Below are positions 1-10,452 of a DNA stretch of 37,051 nt, in pieces; within the stretch, counting starts at the first letter, position 1, and every line of letters begins with the position of its first letter. The notes under the pieces were generated by a model that worked only from the letters and a program-made list of their open reading frames with translations, was not told the DNA's origin and did not search any database. Source of the stretch: Lachnospiraceae bacterium (lineage in GTDB: Bacteria > Bacillota > Clostridia > Lachnospirales > Lachnospiraceae); contig JAJBTX010000073.1 of NCBI GenBank assembly GCA_020860645.1, positions 1 to 37,051 on the forward strand. The letters are read 5' to 3'. The position numbers were made by a program, and so were the translations under genes.

Positions 1-28
1 ACCTTATCGCCCTTCATCAGCGTAAGTG
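1..28. repeat. Left copy of a perfect 28-bp inverted repeat (may extend beyond the window)
   Basis: accttatcgcccttcatcagcgtaagtg is the exact reverse complement of 1010-1037. Confidence 0.95.
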
Positions 29-152
29 TAATAAACCAAGGAGGTGTGCACATGTTGACGAATATTCAAAGTACAGACCTCTTCCACTGTTACTTCTTGC
101 AGTGGATAAAGGTCTACAAAGAAGGTGCTGTCCGAAAGGTTACAATGGATAA
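3..152 (+). CDS. hsdS: 3' end of a probable type I restriction specificity subunit (hsdS) entering from the left edge; reads LIALHQRKCNKPRRCAH... to a TAA at 150-152
   Basis: Frame open from the left edge; LIALHQRK is identical to the HsdS conserved-region motif in the inverted copy (1000-1575). Confidence 0.55.
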   Translation, partial: LIALHQRKCNKPRRCAHVDEYSKYRPLPLLLLAVDKGLQRRCCPKGYNG

Positions 153-981
153 GTACCTCATGACCCACAAGTGGGTGGAACGTCTCGCCCCATCGCTTCG
201 CCTGTGTGATGTGAACAGATTGACCTATCAGCAGTTGTTAAACGAATACGCGCTCAGTCATGAGAAGCAGACCACGATGGATTTTCATCATCAGCTCAAG
301 GGAGCAATCTGTGATGCAGTTGACGACGGCCTTATTGAAAAAGATCCCACTCGCAAAGCCATTGTCAAAGGAAAAAATCCTGCTGAGAAGAAAATCAAAT
401 ACCTGAACCAGTTCGAGCTTCACACTCTGCTCGCCGCGCTTGATCTTCGCGGGGAACTCAACTGGGACTGGCTCATTTTGCTGATTGCCAAGACGGGAAT
501 GCGGTTCTCAGAGGCGCTGGCTCTTACACCCAAGGATTTTGATTTTGCGCACCAGACCTTGTCTGTCAACAAAACGTGGGATTACAAGGAAGGAAGCGGC
601 TTTCAGCCGACGAAGAATGCTTCTTCCGTCCGAAAGATTCAAATCGACTGGCAGACGGTCATCCAATTTTCAGAATTGGTAAAAGGATGCGAAAGTGACA
701 AGCCCATCTTTGTTACTACGGATAATGTATATAACTCGACTGTGAACGGGATTCTCGCGCGTCATTGTAAGAGATTAAACATTCCTGTTATCACAATCCA
801 TGGGCTGAGACATACTCATGCCTCGCTCCTGCTATTTGCTGGTGTTTCTATTGCAAGTGTGGCAAGAAGACTGGGACATTCAAGCATGACCACTACACAA
901 AAAACGTATCTTCATATCATCCAGGAACTCGAAAATCAGGATATCGATTTGGTGATGCGTTCACTTTCCAATCTTAGCTGA
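52..981 (+). CDS. Tyrosine recombinase/integrase, likely hsdS invertase
   Basis: Phage-integrase motifs: TGMRFSEAL, HGLRHTHASLLL, RRLGHSSMTTTQKTYLH; ATG at 52 preceded by AAGGAGG. Confidence 0.9.
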   Translation: MLTNIQSTDLFHCYFLQWIKVYKEGAVRKVTMDKYLMTHKWVERLAPSLRLCDVNRLTYQQLLNEYALSHEKQTTMDFHHQLKGAICDAVDDGLIEKDPTRKAIVKGKNPAEKKIKYLNQFELHTLLAALDLRGELNWDWLILLIAKTGMRFSEALALTPKDFDFAHQTLSVNKTWDYKEGSGFQPTKNASSVRKIQIDWQTVIQFSELVKGCESDKPIFVTTDNVYNSTVNGILARHCKRLNIPVITIHGLRHTHASLLLFAGVSIASVARRLGHSSMTTTQKTYLHIIQELENQDIDLVMRSLSNLS

Positions 982-999
982 TCTCTATCCTTATTGCAT

Positions 1000-1575
1000 C
1001 TAGTAAAACCACTTACGCTGATGAAGGGCGATAAGGTGGTCGAGATGGGAGAAAAATACTCCAATTTGTTTTTGCTCGCTCTCAGTTGGAATAGCAATTT
1101 CAAGATTGTTTACTTGCTCTAAAGAGAGATTAGGTTGTGCTCCAACAGTTGGATTCTTCTTCACAAAATCGGAGACAGCCTTGCCTTTTAGATATGTTTT
1201 CACATACTCCAAATAGCCACTTTTTAATCGAATAATTGCCAAGGCTTGATTTGTATTTGCCGGCAATATGCTTGATTTTACTGAAGTTACTCGTCCAAGA
1301 GTTCCAGCAATTGAAAAAAGAATATCATTTTCTTTGAGCTGAGAACGATGCAAGTATCCTCCGTGTTCTTCCATTGAAATCTTTTGCGTGATAGTGACCT
1401 CACCAGAAGATTCGTCAATACTTTCAATCTTTACAAAATTGACAGTTCCTGTGTTACTTTTATCTAAAGGTGTCGTGCCTTTTGTAATGAGTGATGCAAG
1501 CTCCCCCAACTTCCGCTGTTCCCAAGCATTTGTGGCAGACACCAACAGTACTCCAAGCAAATTTTTGCCAATCAC
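1000..1575 (-). CDS. hsdS: Inverted partial type I restriction specificity subunit (one TRD plus conserved region)
   Basis: NAWEQRKLGELASLITKGTTP at the N-terminus and EQKQIGVFFSHLDHLIALHQRK at the C-terminus are HsdS half-repeat hallmarks; ends WFY*. Confidence 0.85.
   Translation of the reverse strand: MIGKNLLGVLLVSATNAWEQRKLGELASLITKGTTPLDKSNTGTVNFVKIESIDESSGEVTITQKISMEEHGGYLHRSQLKENDILFSIAGTLGRVTSVKSSILPANTNQALAIIRLKSGYLEYVKTYLKGKAVSDFVKKNPTVGAQPNLSLEQVNNLEIAIPTESEQKQIGVFFSHLDHLIALHQRKWFY
1010..1037. repeat. Right copy of the 28-bp inverted repeat, inside the 3' end of the inverted hsdS
   Basis: cacttacgctgatgaagggcgataaggt, exact reverse complement of positions 1-28. Confidence 0.95.
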
Positions 1576-1585
1576 GATTTTCCCG

Positions 1586-1614
1586 TTGTTATAGTGGCAT
1601 AATTATGATATAAT
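1586..1614 (+). promoter_or_regulatory. Promoter of the TA module (TTGTTA-N17-TATAAT) with a CATAATTATG palindrome at 1598-1607
   Basis: Consensus -10, 17-nt spacer, palindrome between the boxes consistent with antitoxin autoregulation. Confidence 0.6.
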
Positions 1615-1640
1615 TGAGCGCGAAGAAAGGAGTGAACACA

Positions 1641-1904
1641 ATGCCTCTTATCATACCGATTAAGGAATTAAGGAAAACCAGTGAGCTTTCAGAACTCGCA
1701 CACAAGGAACAGGAACCGATTTTCATTACGAAGAATGGGTACAGCGATCTCGTTATCATGAGTTCTGAATTATATGACCGTTTTGCCAGGGTGAACCGTA
1801 TAGATCAGGCTATCTATGAGTCGGAACTGGAAATCGAAAATGGTGCTGAAGCAGTAGATGCCGAAACCGTCTTTGCAGAATTGGAGAAAAAACACTTTGG
1901 ATAA
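1641..1904 (+). CDS. Phd/YefM family antitoxin
   Basis: MPLIIPIKELRKTSELSELAHKEQEPIFITKNGYSDLVIMSSELYD; start preceded by AAGGAG. Confidence 0.88.
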   Translation: MPLIIPIKELRKTSELSELAHKEQEPIFITKNGYSDLVIMSSELYDRFARVNRIDQAIYESELEIENGAEAVDAETVFAELEKKHFG

Positions 1905-2334
1905 ATATCGGGTAAAGATCAATCCGCGGGCAATCCGCGAGCTGGATCAAATTTACAAATACATCGCCCTGGCAAAGCTTTCTCCGGAAAATGCAAAAGG
2001 TCAGACCGACAGAATTAAAGCCGCCATTTTGGATCTTGATACCTTTCCAGAGGCGCATCAGGAGCGGCAGGAAGGCCGCTATGCCGGGAAAGGATATCGC
2101 CAGCTCCTGATTGATAACTATCTCGCCATCTTTCGGATTGATAAAAAAAAGAAGGTTGTCACAGTCATTACTATTCAGTATCAGGGCAGAAACACCTGCC
2201 CATCATTACTGAGGCCAAGTCAGCTGACCTCCACCATCTCCCGGTTCGTCTTAAAATACATTGCCCTTGAAACTTTGCTTTTCTCGAGATACTGGTTTTC
2301 CTCCAGATTTCCAAGCACCTGCTTTCTCAGATAG
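1897..2334 (+). CDS. RelE/ParE family toxin, probable TTG start overlapping the antitoxin stop; C-terminus extended past the usual end
   Basis: LDKYRVKINPRAIRELDQIYKYIA...GKGYRQLLIDNYLAIFRIDKKKKVVTVITIQYQGRN; the tail after QYQGRNT looks non-homologous. Confidence 0.8.
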   Translation: MDKYRVKINPRAIRELDQIYKYIALAKLSPENAKGQTDRIKAAILDLDTFPEAHQERQEGRYAGKGYRQLLIDNYLAIFRIDKKKKVVTVITIQYQGRNTCPSLLRPSQLTSTISRFVLKYIALETLLFSRYWFSSRFPSTCFLR

Positions 2335-2390
2335 CTGGAATCACTGATTCCGAGATATTCCGTGATCTCGAAAATCTTCTCCAAGTATAC
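2220..2390 (-). pseudogene. 3' remnant of a decayed gene encoding a winged-helix-like C-terminus
   Basis: Minus strand reads VYLEKIFEITEYLGISDSSYLRKQVLGNLEENQYLEKSKVSRAMYFKTNREMVEVS*; resembles C-termini of divergent AAA/ATP-binding or Fic-type proteins; frame closed by stops upstream. Confidence 0.5.
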
Positions 2391-2472
2391 TTCAAATTAA
2401 CTTCAAGGTTACTTCAAGGTTACTTCAAGTTCACTTCAAGCTCACTTCAAGTTCACTTCAACTTACTTCAAG
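2389..2472. repeat. Tandem repeat, about 7.5 units of an 11-bp consensus ACTTCAAGKTY
   Basis: acttcaaatta/acttcaaggtt/acttcaaggtt/acttcaagttc/acttcaagctc/acttcaagttc/acttcaactt/acttcaag. Confidence 0.95.
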
Positions 2473-2486
2473 CAGCATCCCTCCGG

Positions 2487-5400
2487 CTACGGCATCCGAA
2501 TTTCAAACCCGCCGCTGAGGATGAAGTCCCGGAGCAGCTTATCGGTCTTTACAGGCACCTTGGGCGGGATAATCTTTGTACCTTCCAGCCACTCAAAATA
2601 TGCCCTGGCTTTCTTCTTATCGACCGTGGCCTTCAGAGCGTCGAAGCGGCCAAACTCATTGATATTGGCTTCGGTCACGTGCAGGCTCATCATGCCTCGC
2701 AGCTGATACTCGTCAAGTCCCAGCGCGGAGGAGAGACGGTGAATCTGATCCTCTTTCGCCTTTGAAATATATTCAATGATATAATCCCGGAGCAGCTTCC
2801 CCTCTTCGGGGATCACATCCCCGCGCTGAATGTCGTGAAGAAAGATATTGGCGTACTTCTGCTCTTCCTGCGAGAGCGTCGCAAAGGTTTTGTGCAGCTC
2901 GTCCTCCGCCTGCCGGAGGGCTTCCTCGCTGGCAGTTCCCAGCTGGAACAGCTTGAGATATTTTACAAAGCGGCTGTTCATATAATCCGTGTCGATCTTT
3001 TCCGTATCGATAATGGTGAGGTAGCCTGCGACATCATAGGGAATATCTCCCGTGCTGTCGCCGTCACTGCCGCTGAACAGCTCCTTATAACGTAAGGCAA
3101 GCACTTTATAGGTTCTCTCATCTATTTCCACCTGAATCGTGAACGGCTTTCCTGTTTCAGCATCCGTGAAAACGTAGCTGTCCCGCTTCCAGATGAAGCC
3201 CTGTATTTTCGCGGCTTCCAGATACTCGTTAAACTCCCGGAAAAGATTTGCGAATTTTCTGCGCTCCGTTACGTCTTCGGGCAGCTGACGGAAGCTGTCC
3301 ACGCCTGCCTGCTCGAATAAGTCTTTGATCTCAGCATAGATCGCGTTCATTTTCTCCAGATTCTTGTCCAGGCGCTGGACAAACAGGCCAAAGGGCCGGT
3401 CTCCGGAGTACAGTTTCACCGCCGCCTCAATATTCTTTTCCATGGTGTGCGGACGGCGATAGTATTTAATGGTGCCAAAAGGCTTATCCGGGCCAAAGAG
3501 CCGGTTTGTGCGCGAGAATGCCTGGATAATGTTCTCATACTGGAGCATTTTATCCAGATATAAGGTATTGATCCACTTGGAATCAAAACCGGTCAGCATC
3601 TGATCCACGACGATCAGCAGATTGATCTGCAGTTCCGGGGCGCGGTCAATCCGTTCATAGGGCTTCTTGTGGGCGAGACGAGCGGCGATGTCCTTCTTCA
3701 TCCTGGCAAAGGTCGGAATCGTAAAGTCCTGCCCATATTGTTCATTATAATCCGTGATAATTTCGACCAGGCCGTCTTCCTTCCACTTCGCGCCGCCATT
3801 ATTGTCAATACCGGGATCAAACAGGGCGGTCACCTTCAGGTCGGGAGCCTTTTCCTTCAGTATCCGGTAGTACTCGACCGCTTCCGGAATGGAGCTGGTA
3901 GCCAGTATCGCGTGAAACTTTCCGCCGCGGCTCAGCGTGACCCAGTTTTCCAGAATATCTTCGATCACCAGAGCTCTGTATTCCCGCGTCTCATACTGCG
4001 CATTGGGAAGGTAATCTTCGATGCCCTTGCAGTATTTGCCGCTCTCGTCCGTCCACCCGGCCATGGGCAGTTCCATGTACTGATAGAATATTTCGCTTTT
4101 CTGCAGATCGGCTAGTGCCTCCTGCACGGTATCTGCCTTCGCCTTTTCGAGCGCAACCGCCTCCCGCAGGTCTTTATCTTTATAAGTCAGCACCTTATAG
4201 GGGTCAAAGCCCAGTACGTTCCTGTCACGGATGCCGTCCGCGATGCTGTAGCGATGCAGCTCGTTTCCGAAAACCGTGGTCGTGGTACTCATTTTCTTCT
4301 GGTTTTCGTCCTGAATCGGCGTGCCGGTGAATCCGAAAAAGAGCGCCCGGGGGAAGGTATGCTTGATAGTCAGAAGCATATCGCCGAAGGTAGAACGATG
4401 GCATTCATCTACAATGAAAACAATGCGTTTGGAATTCATGATTTCCAGATCGACTGCCTTCAGACGTCCATCGGCCTCGTCCCGGATGTTACTCATCTTC
4501 TGGATAGAGGTGACGATCAGCGTGTCTGCGGGATCATCGCTTTTCAGTTTGGTGATCAGAACGCCAGTATTTTCCGTGGCCTGCACGTCTTCGTCGTCAT
4601 TGGCAAAATTCCGGTATTCCTTCAGGCTCTGCGTCCCCAGCTCGATACGATCCATGAGAAAAATCACTTTGTCGGCATCATGGGAGGCGGCAATCAACTG
4701 AGCAGATTTGAAGGAAGTCATGGTCTTACCGGAGCCGGTGGTATGCCAGACATAGCCGCCCAGCTGGCTGTCCGCGTCCCACCTGGTTTTGGAAACCTTA
4801 TCGGAAATGGCGCTGGCGGCATAATACTGGTAACTGCGCATCACCTTCAACACACCGTCGGAATCATCCGCCACCGTATAGAAACCGATCAGTTCATGCG
4901 CCATCGGTATGTAGAGAAATCTGGATGCGATCTGCTTCCAGTCATTCATTGGTTCGTTGTCAAAGTCCGCCCAGTGAAAACGATAATTGGGGTTGAAAAC
5001 GCCATCAGGACCGGGATTGGCAAAATAGACGGTCTCCTCCGGGTTCATGGCCACAAAAATCTGTATCAGCGAAAACAGTCCGGTAAAAATACCCTCCTGC
5101 GCATATTTCTCGATCTGATTGCAGGCCCGGCTGACCGGATCACCGCTTCTTTTTAGTTCAATATGGATGACGGGCATCCCGTTGATAAGCAGCATCAGAT
5201 CTCCCCGCCGGTCATTCAGCATTTTTGACCTGGTGGGAAATACAGGCTGCTCGGCAATCTGGTAACGGCTCTGCCCGGCGGCAATCTCACGCCGGTCATA
5301 GATTTTCAGAGATATCTCTTTCCCAAAATGCAGGACATCCTCCGTGTTGTCCCGGATAATCGTGACATAGTTGCCATTGATAAAACCGTTGAGGCGGTTG

Positions 5401-5627
5401 GGTGTTCGCAGGGTGTTGATCTGCTCTATAATCTGCTGCATCTCTCCGGAGGTCAGGGGCTGACCGTTCAGGCGATCAATCCCCATGTTGTTTTCATAGA
5501 GGATATTCGCCCAGTTGTCGATAAGCTGCTGCTCCGTATAATGATACAGGACCTTATTCTCCCATCCCTGTTTGAACAGTATTTTGATCAATGCAGCCTC
5601 AAAATCGGCTTCTTTCGTGAATGCCAC
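2487..5627 (-). CDS. hsdR: Type I restriction enzyme R subunit (HsdR)
   Basis: PD-ExK region GDLMLLINGMPVIHIELKRSG; Walker A TTGSGKTMTSF; DECHRS; C-terminal HsdR helical region. Confidence 0.95.
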   Translation of the reverse strand: MAFTKEADFEAALIKILFKQGWENKVLYHYTEQQLIDNWANILYENNMGIDRLNGQPLTSGEMQQIIEQINTLRTPNRLNGFINGNYVTIIRDNTEDVLHFGKEISLKIYDRREIAAGQSRYQIAEQPVFPTRSKMLNDRRGDLMLLINGMPVIHIELKRSGDPVSRACNQIEKYAQEGIFTGLFSLIQIFVAMNPEETVYFANPGPDGVFNPNYRFHWADFDNEPMNDWKQIASRFLYIPMAHELIGFYTVADDSDGVLKVMRSYQYYAASAISDKVSKTRWDADSQLGGYVWHTTGSGKTMTSFKSAQLIAASHDADKVIFLMDRIELGTQSLKEYRNFANDDEDVQATENTGVLITKLKSDDPADTLIVTSIQKMSNIRDEADGRLKAVDLEIMNSKRIVFIVDECHRSTFGDMLLTIKHTFPRALFFGFTGTPIQDENQKKMSTTTTVFGNELHRYSIADGIRDRNVLGFDPYKVLTYKDKDLREAVALEKAKADTVQEALADLQKSEIFYQYMELPMAGWTDESGKYCKGIEDYLPNAQYETREYRALVIEDILENWVTLSRGGKFHAILATSSIPEAVEYYRILKEKAPDLKVTALFDPGIDNNGGAKWKEDGLVEIITDYNEQYGQDFTIPTFARMKKDIAARLAHKKPYERIDRAPELQINLLIVVDQMLTGFDSKWINTLYLDKMLQYENIIQAFSRTNRLFGPDKPFGTIKYYRRPHTMEKNIEAAVKLYSGDRPFGLFVQRLDKNLEKMNAIYAEIKDLFEQAGVDSFRQLPEDVTERRKFANLFREFNEYLEAAKIQGFIWKRDSYVFTDAETGKPFTIQVEIDERTYKVLALRYKELFSGSDGDSTGDIPYDVAGYLTIIDTEKIDTDYMNSRFVKYLKLFQLGTASEEALRQAEDELHKTFATLSQEEQKYANIFLHDIQRGDVIPEEGKLLRDYIIEYISKAKEDQIHRLSSALGLDEYQLRGMMSLHVTEANINEFGRFDALKATVDKKKARAYFEWLEGTKIIPPKVPVKTDKLLRDFILSGGFEIRMP

Positions 5628-6996: not shown

Positions 6997-7989
6997 ATGA
7001 AGATATTGATCGTATCAGGCTTTCTCGGAGCGGGAAAGACGACGTTTATCAAAAGCCTTTCAAAGCATACAGGCCGGGAAATCGCCATCCTGGAAAATGA
7101 ATACGGCGAGGTCGGCGTAGACGGCGACGTCTTGCGCGCGGACAGCGCACAGAGCATCGGAAAAGTCAATATCTGGGAACTGACCGAGGGCTGCATCTGC
7201 TGTTCCACGAAGGGCGATTTCGCAGCCTCCGTACTGACGATCGCGAATACAGTCGACCCGGAATATCTCGTAGTCGAGCCGACAGGCGTCGGCATGCTGA
7301 GCAATATCATCGCAAACCTGCAGCAGATCGAATACGAGCGGATCACCCTGCTCGCGCCGGTTGCAATCGTGGACGGGCAGAGTTTTCATAACAATTTAAG
7401 AGAGTATCCGGAAATTTATAAGGATCAGATCCGCGAAGCGCGGACCGTCTTTGTATCGAAGCTGGAAAACGCGTCGCCGGAAGAGCTCCGGAAAATCAAA
7501 CAGGATATCGAGACGCTCTGCCCGGGCGGACAGGTCGTGGCCGAGCACTACTCCGGCATGGATGAGGCTGCATGGCTCGCTCTCCTCAAACGGGGCTACG
7601 ACGGTTCGCATCTTGAGACAAAGCCGGAGAGCTCTGAGCTTCCCGACACCTTTTCCATGAGCGGTGTAGAGATGGAGTCACCGGAAATGCTGCTTCTGCT
7701 GCTCGAGCGCCTCATCCACGGTGGACTCGGCGGGGTCGTGCGCGCGAAGGGCTGCGTCAGGGCGGGCGGCGAGTGGCTGCGCTTCGACGCCGTGGACGGC
7801 AGATATACCCTGTCCGGCGCGGAGTCCGCACCAGAGGGCAAGGCCGTCTTCATCGGGAGGGACATTCGCCGCCAGACGATACGGCGTTATTTCACGCAGA
7901 CGCGCAGGCGGCCGCGCATCGGGAAGAACAGCAGCCACGCGCAGGCGGGCGCGGGGCGTTCTTCTATCATCATCCCCTGGAACGAATGA
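6997..7989 (+). CDS. COG0523/CobW-family G3E GTPase (putative metallochaperone)
   Basis: GFLGAGKTT P-loop, EGCICCSTKGDF CxCC motif, VVEPTGVG. Confidence 0.9.
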   Translation: MKILIVSGFLGAGKTTFIKSLSKHTGREIAILENEYGEVGVDGDVLRADSAQSIGKVNIWELTEGCICCSTKGDFAASVLTIANTVDPEYLVVEPTGVGMLSNIIANLQQIEYERITLLAPVAIVDGQSFHNNLREYPEIYKDQIREARTVFVSKLENASPEELRKIKQDIETLCPGGQVVAEHYSGMDEAAWLALLKRGYDGSHLETKPESSELPDTFSMSGVEMESPEMLLLLLERLIHGGLGGVVRAKGCVRAGGEWLRFDAVDGRYTLSGAESAPEGKAVFIGRDIRRQTIRRYFTQTRRRPRIGKNSSHAQAGAGRSSIIIPWNE

Positions 7990-8134
7990 GACACAGTAGA
8001 GCCAGAATATGGCATCAGATGCGGCAGAATGAAATCAGTGCCGTGTTGTATTTGCGATGCATCCACTCATCCCATCTATCCGTCAGGACAATGCACCTGT
8101 CATGTTGAAAATCTGCTCCTTCAGCTATAAAAGA

Positions 8135-8158
8135 GGTGCCGGACAAATATCCGACACC
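8135..8158 (-). terminator. Rho-independent terminator of lon
   Basis: Minus strand GGTGTCGGA...TCCGGCACC then TCTTTTATAG. Confidence 0.7.
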
Positions 8159-8187
8159 TGTCATTATACATGCCGCAGCACGCTTTA

Positions 8188-10452
8188 TCACATCACTTTC
8201 CCCAGCACCTCCGACACCCGGTGCACCGGGATGATCGTCAGGCTGTCCTTCACTTCCTGCGCCACCTCGTCGAGGTCGTCTTCATTTTCCCGCGGGATAT
8301 AGACTGTGGTGACACCCGCTCTCTGGGCCGCCATCAGCTTTTCCGGCAGTCCGCCGATCGGCATCACAAAGCCGCGCAGAGACACCTCGCCGGTCATCGC
8401 GACGTCCGGCGAGACCGCTTTTCCGTTCACCAGCGAGGCGATCGCCGTGGTCAGCGTGATACCGGCGGAAGGACCGTCCTTCGGCACCGCGCCCGCGGGC
8501 ACATGAATGTGCAGGTCATTTTTCTCAAAGAGCTCCGCCTTATCAGGATACATGCTCTTCACGAGGCTGACCGCGATCTGAACCGACTCCTTCATGACAT
8601 CGCCGAGCTGTCCGGTGATTACCGTCTTTCCCTCTCCCTTGGTAAACAGAGCCTCGATAAAGAGGATGTCCCCGCCCGCGCTGGTCCAGGCAAGGCCGGT
8701 CACCACGCCGGGCTGCTTCTCCTCCAGACGGCGGTCGTGCGGAATCGGCTTCTGATCCAGGAATTCGCGCAGCCGCTTCGGGCTGACGGAAACGCTCTTA
8801 TTTTCCCCCTTTACCAGGCGGACGGCCGCCACACGGCAGAGCGTGTCGAGCTGCTTCTTCAGGCCGCGCACACCGGCCTCCATCGTATAATCGGAGATGA
8901 TCGTGCGCAGCGCGACGTCGGAAATGCGCAGGCTCTGCGCTTTGATCCCCATATCCTTCATCGAGCGCGGAAGCAGGTGCTTCTTCGCGATCTGGAACTT
9001 GTCCGTCGCCGTATAACCCGGGAACTGGATGACCTCCATGCGGTTCAGCAGCGGCTCCGGGATCGTGTCAGTGGTATTCGCCGTACAGACGAACAGTACA
9101 TCGGAGAGGTCATAGGGCACATTCATATAATGATCGGTAAAAGTATTATTCTGCTCCGGGTCGAGCACCTCCAGCAGCGCACTCGAGGGGTCGCCGCCGT
9201 AGTCCCGCACCAGCTTGTCTACCTCGTCCAGCACCATGACCGGATTCGACGTGCCGCTGCGCTTAATGCCCTCCATAATCCGGCCCGGCATCGCGCCGAT
9301 ATAGGTGCGGCGATGGCCGCGAATCTCCGCCTCGTCGCGCACGCCGCCCAAGCTCACGCGCACATAGCTCCTGCCCAGCGCTCTGGCGATGCTCTGCCCG
9401 ATGCTCGTCTTGCCGGTGCCGGGCGCGCCGACGAAGAGCAGGATCGATCCCGCCTGCTTCCGGTTCAGCGTCATGACCGCGAGCTGCTGGATAATCCGCT
9501 TCTTGACCTTTTTCAGGCCAAAGTGATCCTCATCGAGGATCCGCTCCGCCTCCTTCAGATCGACCGGCGGTATCTCCTCCTTCTTCCAGGAGAGCGAAGT
9601 CACAAAGTCAAGATAGTCATACAGCATGCCATACTCGTGACTGTTCTGCCCCTCCTGCTTCATGCGGTTCAGCACCTTCATCGCCTCGGCGCGCGCCGTA
9701 TCGTTCATCTGGGATTTCTCGATCTTCTGCTCGAACTTTCTCACATCGGAAATGCTCTCCGGGTGCATCTCATCGAGCTGCTTCTGCAGGAACTCAATCT
9801 GCTTGCGAATCGCCTGCTCCCGGTAGATCTGCTCGTTGGAGCTCGCCTGCGCGTCCGCGGCCTCCTTCTTCACCTTCTCCATCTCCAGATACTCATAGAT
9901 CGCCTTCTCCATGCGCGTGGTGCGCTCCGAGATGGTGTCTGCCGCCAGAATCGCGTATTTCTCCTCATTGGAATTGCCCAGCATAAAGGACAGCGTCGCA
10001 GTCATTTCTCCCAGCGAATCCCACTGCATCACGTAATTGCGGGCGAGCAGCCCAAACTGGGTCTTCTGGATATGATTCATGAAAGCCGTCTTCGCCGCCT
10101 CAAAATGCTTACCGATCTCCTCCGGCGTCATATCCTCCACATCCTGCCGCTCCGAGAGCGTCACCACAATGCGCTCTCCCACCGTCGCGATCGTATCAAT
10201 ATTGACGCGGCTGCCTGTCAGGACCTTTACATTGCCCTCCTTGTCAACGGCCTCGATCTTTCCGGTGATGCCGATCGGATAAAAGTCGTCCGCCCGCATC
10301 TCCTCACGGGACTTGTCCTCCTTCAGCATCAGAAAGACGACCTCTTCGCCGGGCTGCGCCGGCCGCTCCGTAATCTTCTGAAAATAATTATTCTGAAAAT
10401 ACAGGTAAATATCCGGGACAATCACTATATTGTAATAAGGAACTGTAATCAT
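8188..10452 (-). CDS. lon: ATP-dependent protease La (Lon)
   Basis: GAPGTGKTSIGQSIARALGRSYVRVSLGGVRDEAEIRGHRRTYIGAMPGRI; catalytic region KDGPSAG. Confidence 0.97.
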   Translation of the reverse strand: MITVPYYNIVIVPDIYLYFQNNYFQKITERPAQPGEEVVFLMLKEDKSREEMRADDFYPIGITGKIEAVDKEGNVKVLTGSRVNIDTIATVGERIVVTLSERQDVEDMTPEEIGKHFEAAKTAFMNHIQKTQFGLLARNYVMQWDSLGEMTATLSFMLGNSNEEKYAILAADTISERTTRMEKAIYEYLEMEKVKKEAADAQASSNEQIYREQAIRKQIEFLQKQLDEMHPESISDVRKFEQKIEKSQMNDTARAEAMKVLNRMKQEGQNSHEYGMLYDYLDFVTSLSWKKEEIPPVDLKEAERILDEDHFGLKKVKKRIIQQLAVMTLNRKQAGSILLFVGAPGTGKTSIGQSIARALGRSYVRVSLGGVRDEAEIRGHRRTYIGAMPGRIMEGIKRSGTSNPVMVLDEVDKLVRDYGGDPSSALLEVLDPEQNNTFTDHYMNVPYDLSDVLFVCTANTTDTIPEPLLNRMEVIQFPGYTATDKFQIAKKHLLPRSMKDMGIKAQSLRISDVALRTIISDYTMEAGVRGLKKQLDTLCRVAAVRLVKGENKSVSVSPKRLREFLDQKPIPHDRRLEEKQPGVVTGLAWTSAGGDILFIEALFTKGEGKTVITGQLGDVMKESVQIAVSLVKSMYPDKAELFEKNDLHIHVPAGAVPKDGPSAGITLTTAIASLVNGKAVSPDVAMTGEVSLRGFVMPIGGLPEKLMAAQRAGVTTVYIPRENEDDLDEVAQEVKDSLTIIPVHRVSEVLGKVM

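Follow-up and report, generated by a model that had tools for sequence, protein, structure and literature searches.

Few bacterial type I restriction-modification loci rearrange their own specificity genes; the proportion of type I loci with inverting systems was a few percent in a REBASE survey (PMC7394358). The system closest to the locus described here is that of Listeria monocytogenes ST8/CC8, whose invertible hsd locus likewise comprises hsdR, hsdM and two opposed hsdS genes around an integrase and has been found in four configurations among close ST8 strains (PMC4783014). Comparable features are found in streptococci. The pneumococcal system known as SpnIII, cod or ivr has a locus-borne tyrosine recombinase (PsrA, synonymous with CreX and IvrR) and short inverted repeats (PMC4948785, PMC6620402, PMC7096588); it also contains silent hsdS genes, including a single-TRD copy, and the orientation of its recombinase flips with the locus. 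In SsuCC20p of Streptococcus suis, also a type I system, TRD shuffling needs the recombinase encoded in the locus (PMC10790761).

Here we describe a fresh example of the kind known from Listeria and Streptococcus, the system type itself not being new. It lies at the left end of a 37,051-nt window, which is one whole contig (JAJBTX010000073.1; contig C8 of genome G000) of a Lachnospiraceae bacterium and whose first base is already inside an inverted repeat. Positions 1-1575 contain a tyrosine recombinase gene flanked on both sides by the arms of a perfect 28-bp inverted repeat and by convergent hsdS pieces. This agrees with the first-pass annotation, in which the recombinase was placed between an hsdS-like + strand frame, at its 3' end, and an inverted single-TRD hsdS, except that real hsdS sequence in the + strand frame is limited to about 10 codons. 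The same annotation left unmentioned the hsdR gene, located within the window to the right of the inverted copy. Direct evidence was obtained for the gene content, the catalytic residues of the recombinase, the inner repeat, the match to the Listeria sites and the opposite orientation of the segment in two near relatives. Taking this evidence into account, window 1-1575 together with hsdR very probably makes up half of a type I locus inverted by its own recombinase and equipped with two classes of site (designated W and C) and a silent TRD cassette. The original proposal of an inversion-type hsdS locus is thus supported by the reverse-oriented recombinase segment of a relative, by Listeria-matching sites and by a complete recombinase.

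The recombinase gene (46..981, + strand; PF00589, E=8e-21) encodes 311 aa when read from GTG 46, but a Shine-Dalgarno sequence (AAGGAGG) at positions 38-44 suggests that ATG 52 is the likely true start. Missing catalytic residues would have spoken against the inversion proposal; all six (R153, K190, H252, R255, H278 and Y288) are present in the window protein, and they are at least 98% invariant among 87 recombinase homologues. The locus therefore contains a catalytically complete tyrosine recombinase.

The two arms of the inner inverted repeat, at positions 1..28 (+ strand) and 1010..1037 (- strand), are 100% complementary and both correspond to LIALHQRK codons (C site). The right arm belongs to the inverted hsdS copy, while the left arm, cut by the contig end, is all that is left of a second, convergent hsdS on the + strand, namely its 3' end. 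A perfect 28-bp inverted pair greatly exceeds chance expectation, which by our estimate is of the order of 1e-8 in 37 kb of random sequence, although the match partly reflects homology between hsdS genes. The outer site (W site), TTGGGAACAGCGGAAGTTGGGGGA, is located at 1502..1525 (- strand) and codes for WEQRKLG; its partner has gone with the missing hsdS. A second inverted repeat, predicted earlier around the AWEQRKLGEL codons, does exist in a near relative, designated L008, as a 25-bp inverted pair. Inverted repeats are therefore found within the hsdS copies, the inner pair in the window and the outer pair in L008 only.

The inverted copy, hsdS' (1000..1575, - strand; PF01420, E=1.3e-16; PADLOC Specificity_I, E=1e-28), starts with NAWEQRKLGEL, contains one TRD and ends with LHQRKWFY*, i.e. 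with the short tail WFY*. A promoter scan revealed no promoter-like match directly upstream of it on its own strand. As the first-pass annotation had surmised, this copy is very probably a silent TRD cassette. It provides the locus with an additional inverted hsdS carrying a different TRD, since no DNA match was found among the three TRDs seen across the window and L008.

Both sites of the window differ in no more than a few bases from the repeats published for inversion in Listeria, agcttgggaacagcgt and ctatcgctcttcatcagcgtaagttagat (PMC4783014), one difference being the Arg codon of the W site. Two Listeria records that we examined have both repeats in inverted pairs, and the recombinase enclosed by them is 64.5-65.9% identical to that of the window. 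Unlike the window copy, which has one TRD and C sites beside the recombinase, each Listeria hsdS has two TRDs with the C sites in the middle of the gene. The pneumococcal system differs in having three repeats of 15, 85 and approximately 300 bp and the core ATTATGGGAA instead of the CAGCGTAAG of the window, and PsrA is likened to our recombinase by description only. The 14-bp repeats of SsuCC20p, TAAATCATCATTTA, are unrelated in sequence to those of the window (PMC10790761).

Related loci share the same two types of site: W, TTGGGAACAGCGTAAG, at each TRD start, and C, ATCACCCTTCATCAGCGTAAG, at the TRD end, with CAGCGTAAG common to both. Compared with the Listeria-type cores TTGGGAACAGCGTAAG and CTTCATCAGCGTAAG, the window has an exact C core at both arms and a W core with one mismatch, CGG in place of the CGT found in 92% of W sites; the 10-mer CAGCGTAAGT present at the window C cores has no other copy in the 37 kb. 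Across dozens of genomes of many genera, the W- and C-site codons are nearly fixed at synonymous positions. Among 148 W sites CAG is used in 99% and CGT in 92% (53% and 25%, respectively, in the neighbouring-gene background), while among 127 C sites the values are 93% for ATC, 91% for ACC, 100% for CTT and 91% for CGT (background 27, 22, 24 and 25%). The same codons persist in hsdS genes from genomes without the recombinase. Codon fixation is therefore supporting evidence rather than proof of present use.

Among 390 other genomes sampled evenly from the class, the recombinase and an hsdS encoding the C site co-occur (both in 9 genomes, one of the two in 3 and 9, neither in 369; Fisher p=2e-11); in 9 of the 390 the C-site motif has no close recombinase, and most of these use the same codons. 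In 30 of 82 related loci the recombinase lies between two inverted C sites, the remainder having a C site upstream only (19), downstream only (11) or none (22). The loci with a single C site or none, together with the integrase-family nature of the recombinase and the presence of its relatives on plasmids and phage contigs, could also indicate that hsdS was interrupted by a small mobile element consisting of the recombinase segment, the repeat being a duplicated target and the two orientations independent insertions. The repeats, however, are inverted and not direct, they are located at the same codons of convergent hsdS pieces across many genera, and the flanks match a Listeria locus for which four inversion variants have been observed (PMC4783014). 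We consider such an origin extremely improbable. The closest viral, plasmid and phage relatives are at most 75% identical and added no orientation data for this lineage.

The whole locus is present in L008 (JAJQCB010000089.1), a near relative with approximately 95% nucleotide identity, known from a MAG contig of low coverage (6.2 according to its title). With hsdM placed at the left, L008 aligns in the forward direction with contig C53 of the window genome (94.4%), which carries hsdM, and with the hsdR side of the window (95.3%), whereas window 1-1047, comprising the recombinase and both arms, aligns in reverse (94.9%). Relative to hsdR and hsdM, the approximately 1-kb recombinase segment thus has opposite orientations in the two genomes, and the breakpoints are at the repeat. 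Since the segment and hsdR are on one contig in each genome, its orientation with respect to the hsdR side is independent of the joining of C53. The alternative configurations were observed between genomes and not within one clone, and the difference could reflect one old inversion. The inverted pairs of L008 are 34 bp (inner) and 25 bp (outer, at the WEQRKLG codons).

Inversion of this segment could also be ascribed to general homologous recombination, given that in pneumococcus the longer repeats still invert to some extent when the local recombinase is absent. Inversion at the pneumococcal 15-bp repeat, however, strictly needs it and recA mutants still invert (PMC6620402); the repeat in question here is only 28-34 bp long, and the segment itself encodes an intact recombinase. 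We regard homologous recombination as a very unlikely agent, and inversion by the recombinase of the locus as the probable one.

Several further features of the window were noted on the hsdR side. A Phd/YefM-type antitoxin gene (1641..1904, + strand; PF02604), situated between the cassette and hsdR, and its partner, a ParE/RelE-type toxin gene (1897..2334, + strand; PF05016, E=3e-13), have no counterpart in the L008 alignment; this pair (1641-2334) has its own promoter-like site at 1586-1614. Just downstream of hsdR, at 2391-2471, there is a short tandem array of approximately 12-bp units (ACTTCAAGTTC-like). A gene for a 487-aa protein adjoining hsdR is intact in L008 (3377-4840) and has no NCBIfam match; in the window approximately 1.3 kb of it is deleted, as indicated by an alignment gap, leaving a C-terminal remnant (ORF 2220..2384, - strand, within region 2217-2391) that matches the end of the L008 gene.

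The window genome encodes both remaining subunits of a type I system. The hsdR gene (2487..5627, - strand) is intact and encodes 1046 aa with HSDR_N, SWI2_SNF2 and EcoR124_C domains (TIGR00348 above cut-off), and hsdM, also intact (878 aa; TIGR00497 above cut-off), is located beside prfC on C53, in the same prfC-hsdM neighbourhood as in L008; C53 is joined to the window contig solely by this synteny. The first-pass annotation had expected hsdM and an active hsdS to the left of the window. By synteny this holds for hsdM, but a complete hsdS was found nowhere in the assembly, in which a PF01420 profile search and a repeat search matched only the window cassette. At 2 nt past the hsdM stop on C53 begins not hsdS but a repeated sequence with 11 copies in the genome, each within approximately 55 nt of a contig end. 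This distribution marks the sequence as one terminus of a repetitive and probably mobile element, and we therefore rejected its interpretation as the start of an unusual hsdS. The element is known from its end alone, its body not having been recovered. The start codon of hsdS in L008 sits exactly where the element begins after hsdM on C53, and so the assembly probably lacks the stretch running from the element to the inverted repeat, and with it the expressed hsdS. The element may have displaced or silenced hsdS in this genome, uncoupling it from hsdM.

The element end (AAGTTTGAAACTGGAACGTRGCGGTTAGAAAGC...) occurs at C53 4104-4158 (locus L088) and at the ends of C3, C6, C37, C47, C71, C79, C103, C108, C115 and C123; most of these at least 11 copies directly follow a purine-rich, Shine-Dalgarno-like stretch. 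It is also present in one congener (G001) and has no exact match in viral contigs. One allele has, approximately 40 nt into the sequence, ATGGCAAACAAA, which may mark the beginning of a gene for a transposase or TnpB-like protein.

These findings raise the possibility that the locus is a decayed relic: having once inverted, it would no longer switch anything, hsdS expression having been abolished by deletions and by a mobile element at the hsdM/hsdS junction. Such decay would account for the repeated sequence 2 nt after hsdM and for the truncation of the gene neighbouring hsdR. In L008, moreover, hsdR and hsdM (2-3266 and 7082-9653) each consist of two overlapping frames and are thus frameshifted, by decay or by assembly error, and the hsdS adjacent to hsdM has a single TRD and ends with LHQRKWFY*. 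On the other hand, hsdR, hsdM and the recombinase are all intact in the genome of the window, and the L008 frameshifts may be errors in a contig of such low coverage. We judge the relic state to be unlikely, though deserving serious consideration, and favour a locus in which inversion probably still occurs within today's population.

The contig break at the repeat was also considered as proof of mixed orientation, but this was rejected, because strain-level hsdS variation or a coverage gap could equally have produced it. The breaks at the element ends suggest an assembly word of approximately 55, in which case a repeat of 28-34 bp alone should not break a contig; the right arm of the inner repeat is unbroken in the assembly. 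The break is therefore neutral: it fits mixed alleles or orientations without proving them.

We propose that the recombinase would act on two classes of inverted site in hsdS, W at the TRD start (WEQRKLG codons) and C at the TRD end (LIxLHQRK codons). Inversion between two W sites or two C sites would give the expressed hsdS beside hsdM another TRD or another tail, producing either a new target specificity, and hence a change in methylation, or a truncated HsdS. In relatives, full-length expressed hsdS genes have a conserved tail such as LEKLQNIKKACLEKMFV, while the recombinase-side copies end abruptly (WFY, CFY or RFY). This suggests that C-site inversion at TRD1 would leave a truncated single-TRD HsdS, as seen beside hsdM in L008, and such a product may be inactive. 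Engineered half-HsdS subunits, however, can dimerise and methylate palindromic sites (PMC6158711), and by analogy a half-subunit state might exist here, although the half-HsdS of L008 is without the usual C-terminal helix segment. C-site inversion might even make single-TRD HsdS deliberately, toggling between bipartite specificity and a half-subunit that self-pairs at a palindromic site or is off. We regard this as a doubtful, speculative proposition; if true, the switch would have a third state in addition to TRD exchange.

Highly similar TRDs were also observed in different genera (loci L028, L029, L035, L077, L022, L049 and L008), where they occupy the first, second or cassette position between the same W and C sites. 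This distribution suggests that TRDs travel as cassettes between species.

Our analysis places the Listeria-type hsdS inversion sites, together with their recombinase, in an uncultured clostridial lineage. Two near-fixed short DNA sites constitute a simple signature by which loci for phase-variable methylation may be recognized in metagenomes. For the organism itself, if hsdS is still expressed, mixed methylomes and mixed phage-resistance states are predicted.
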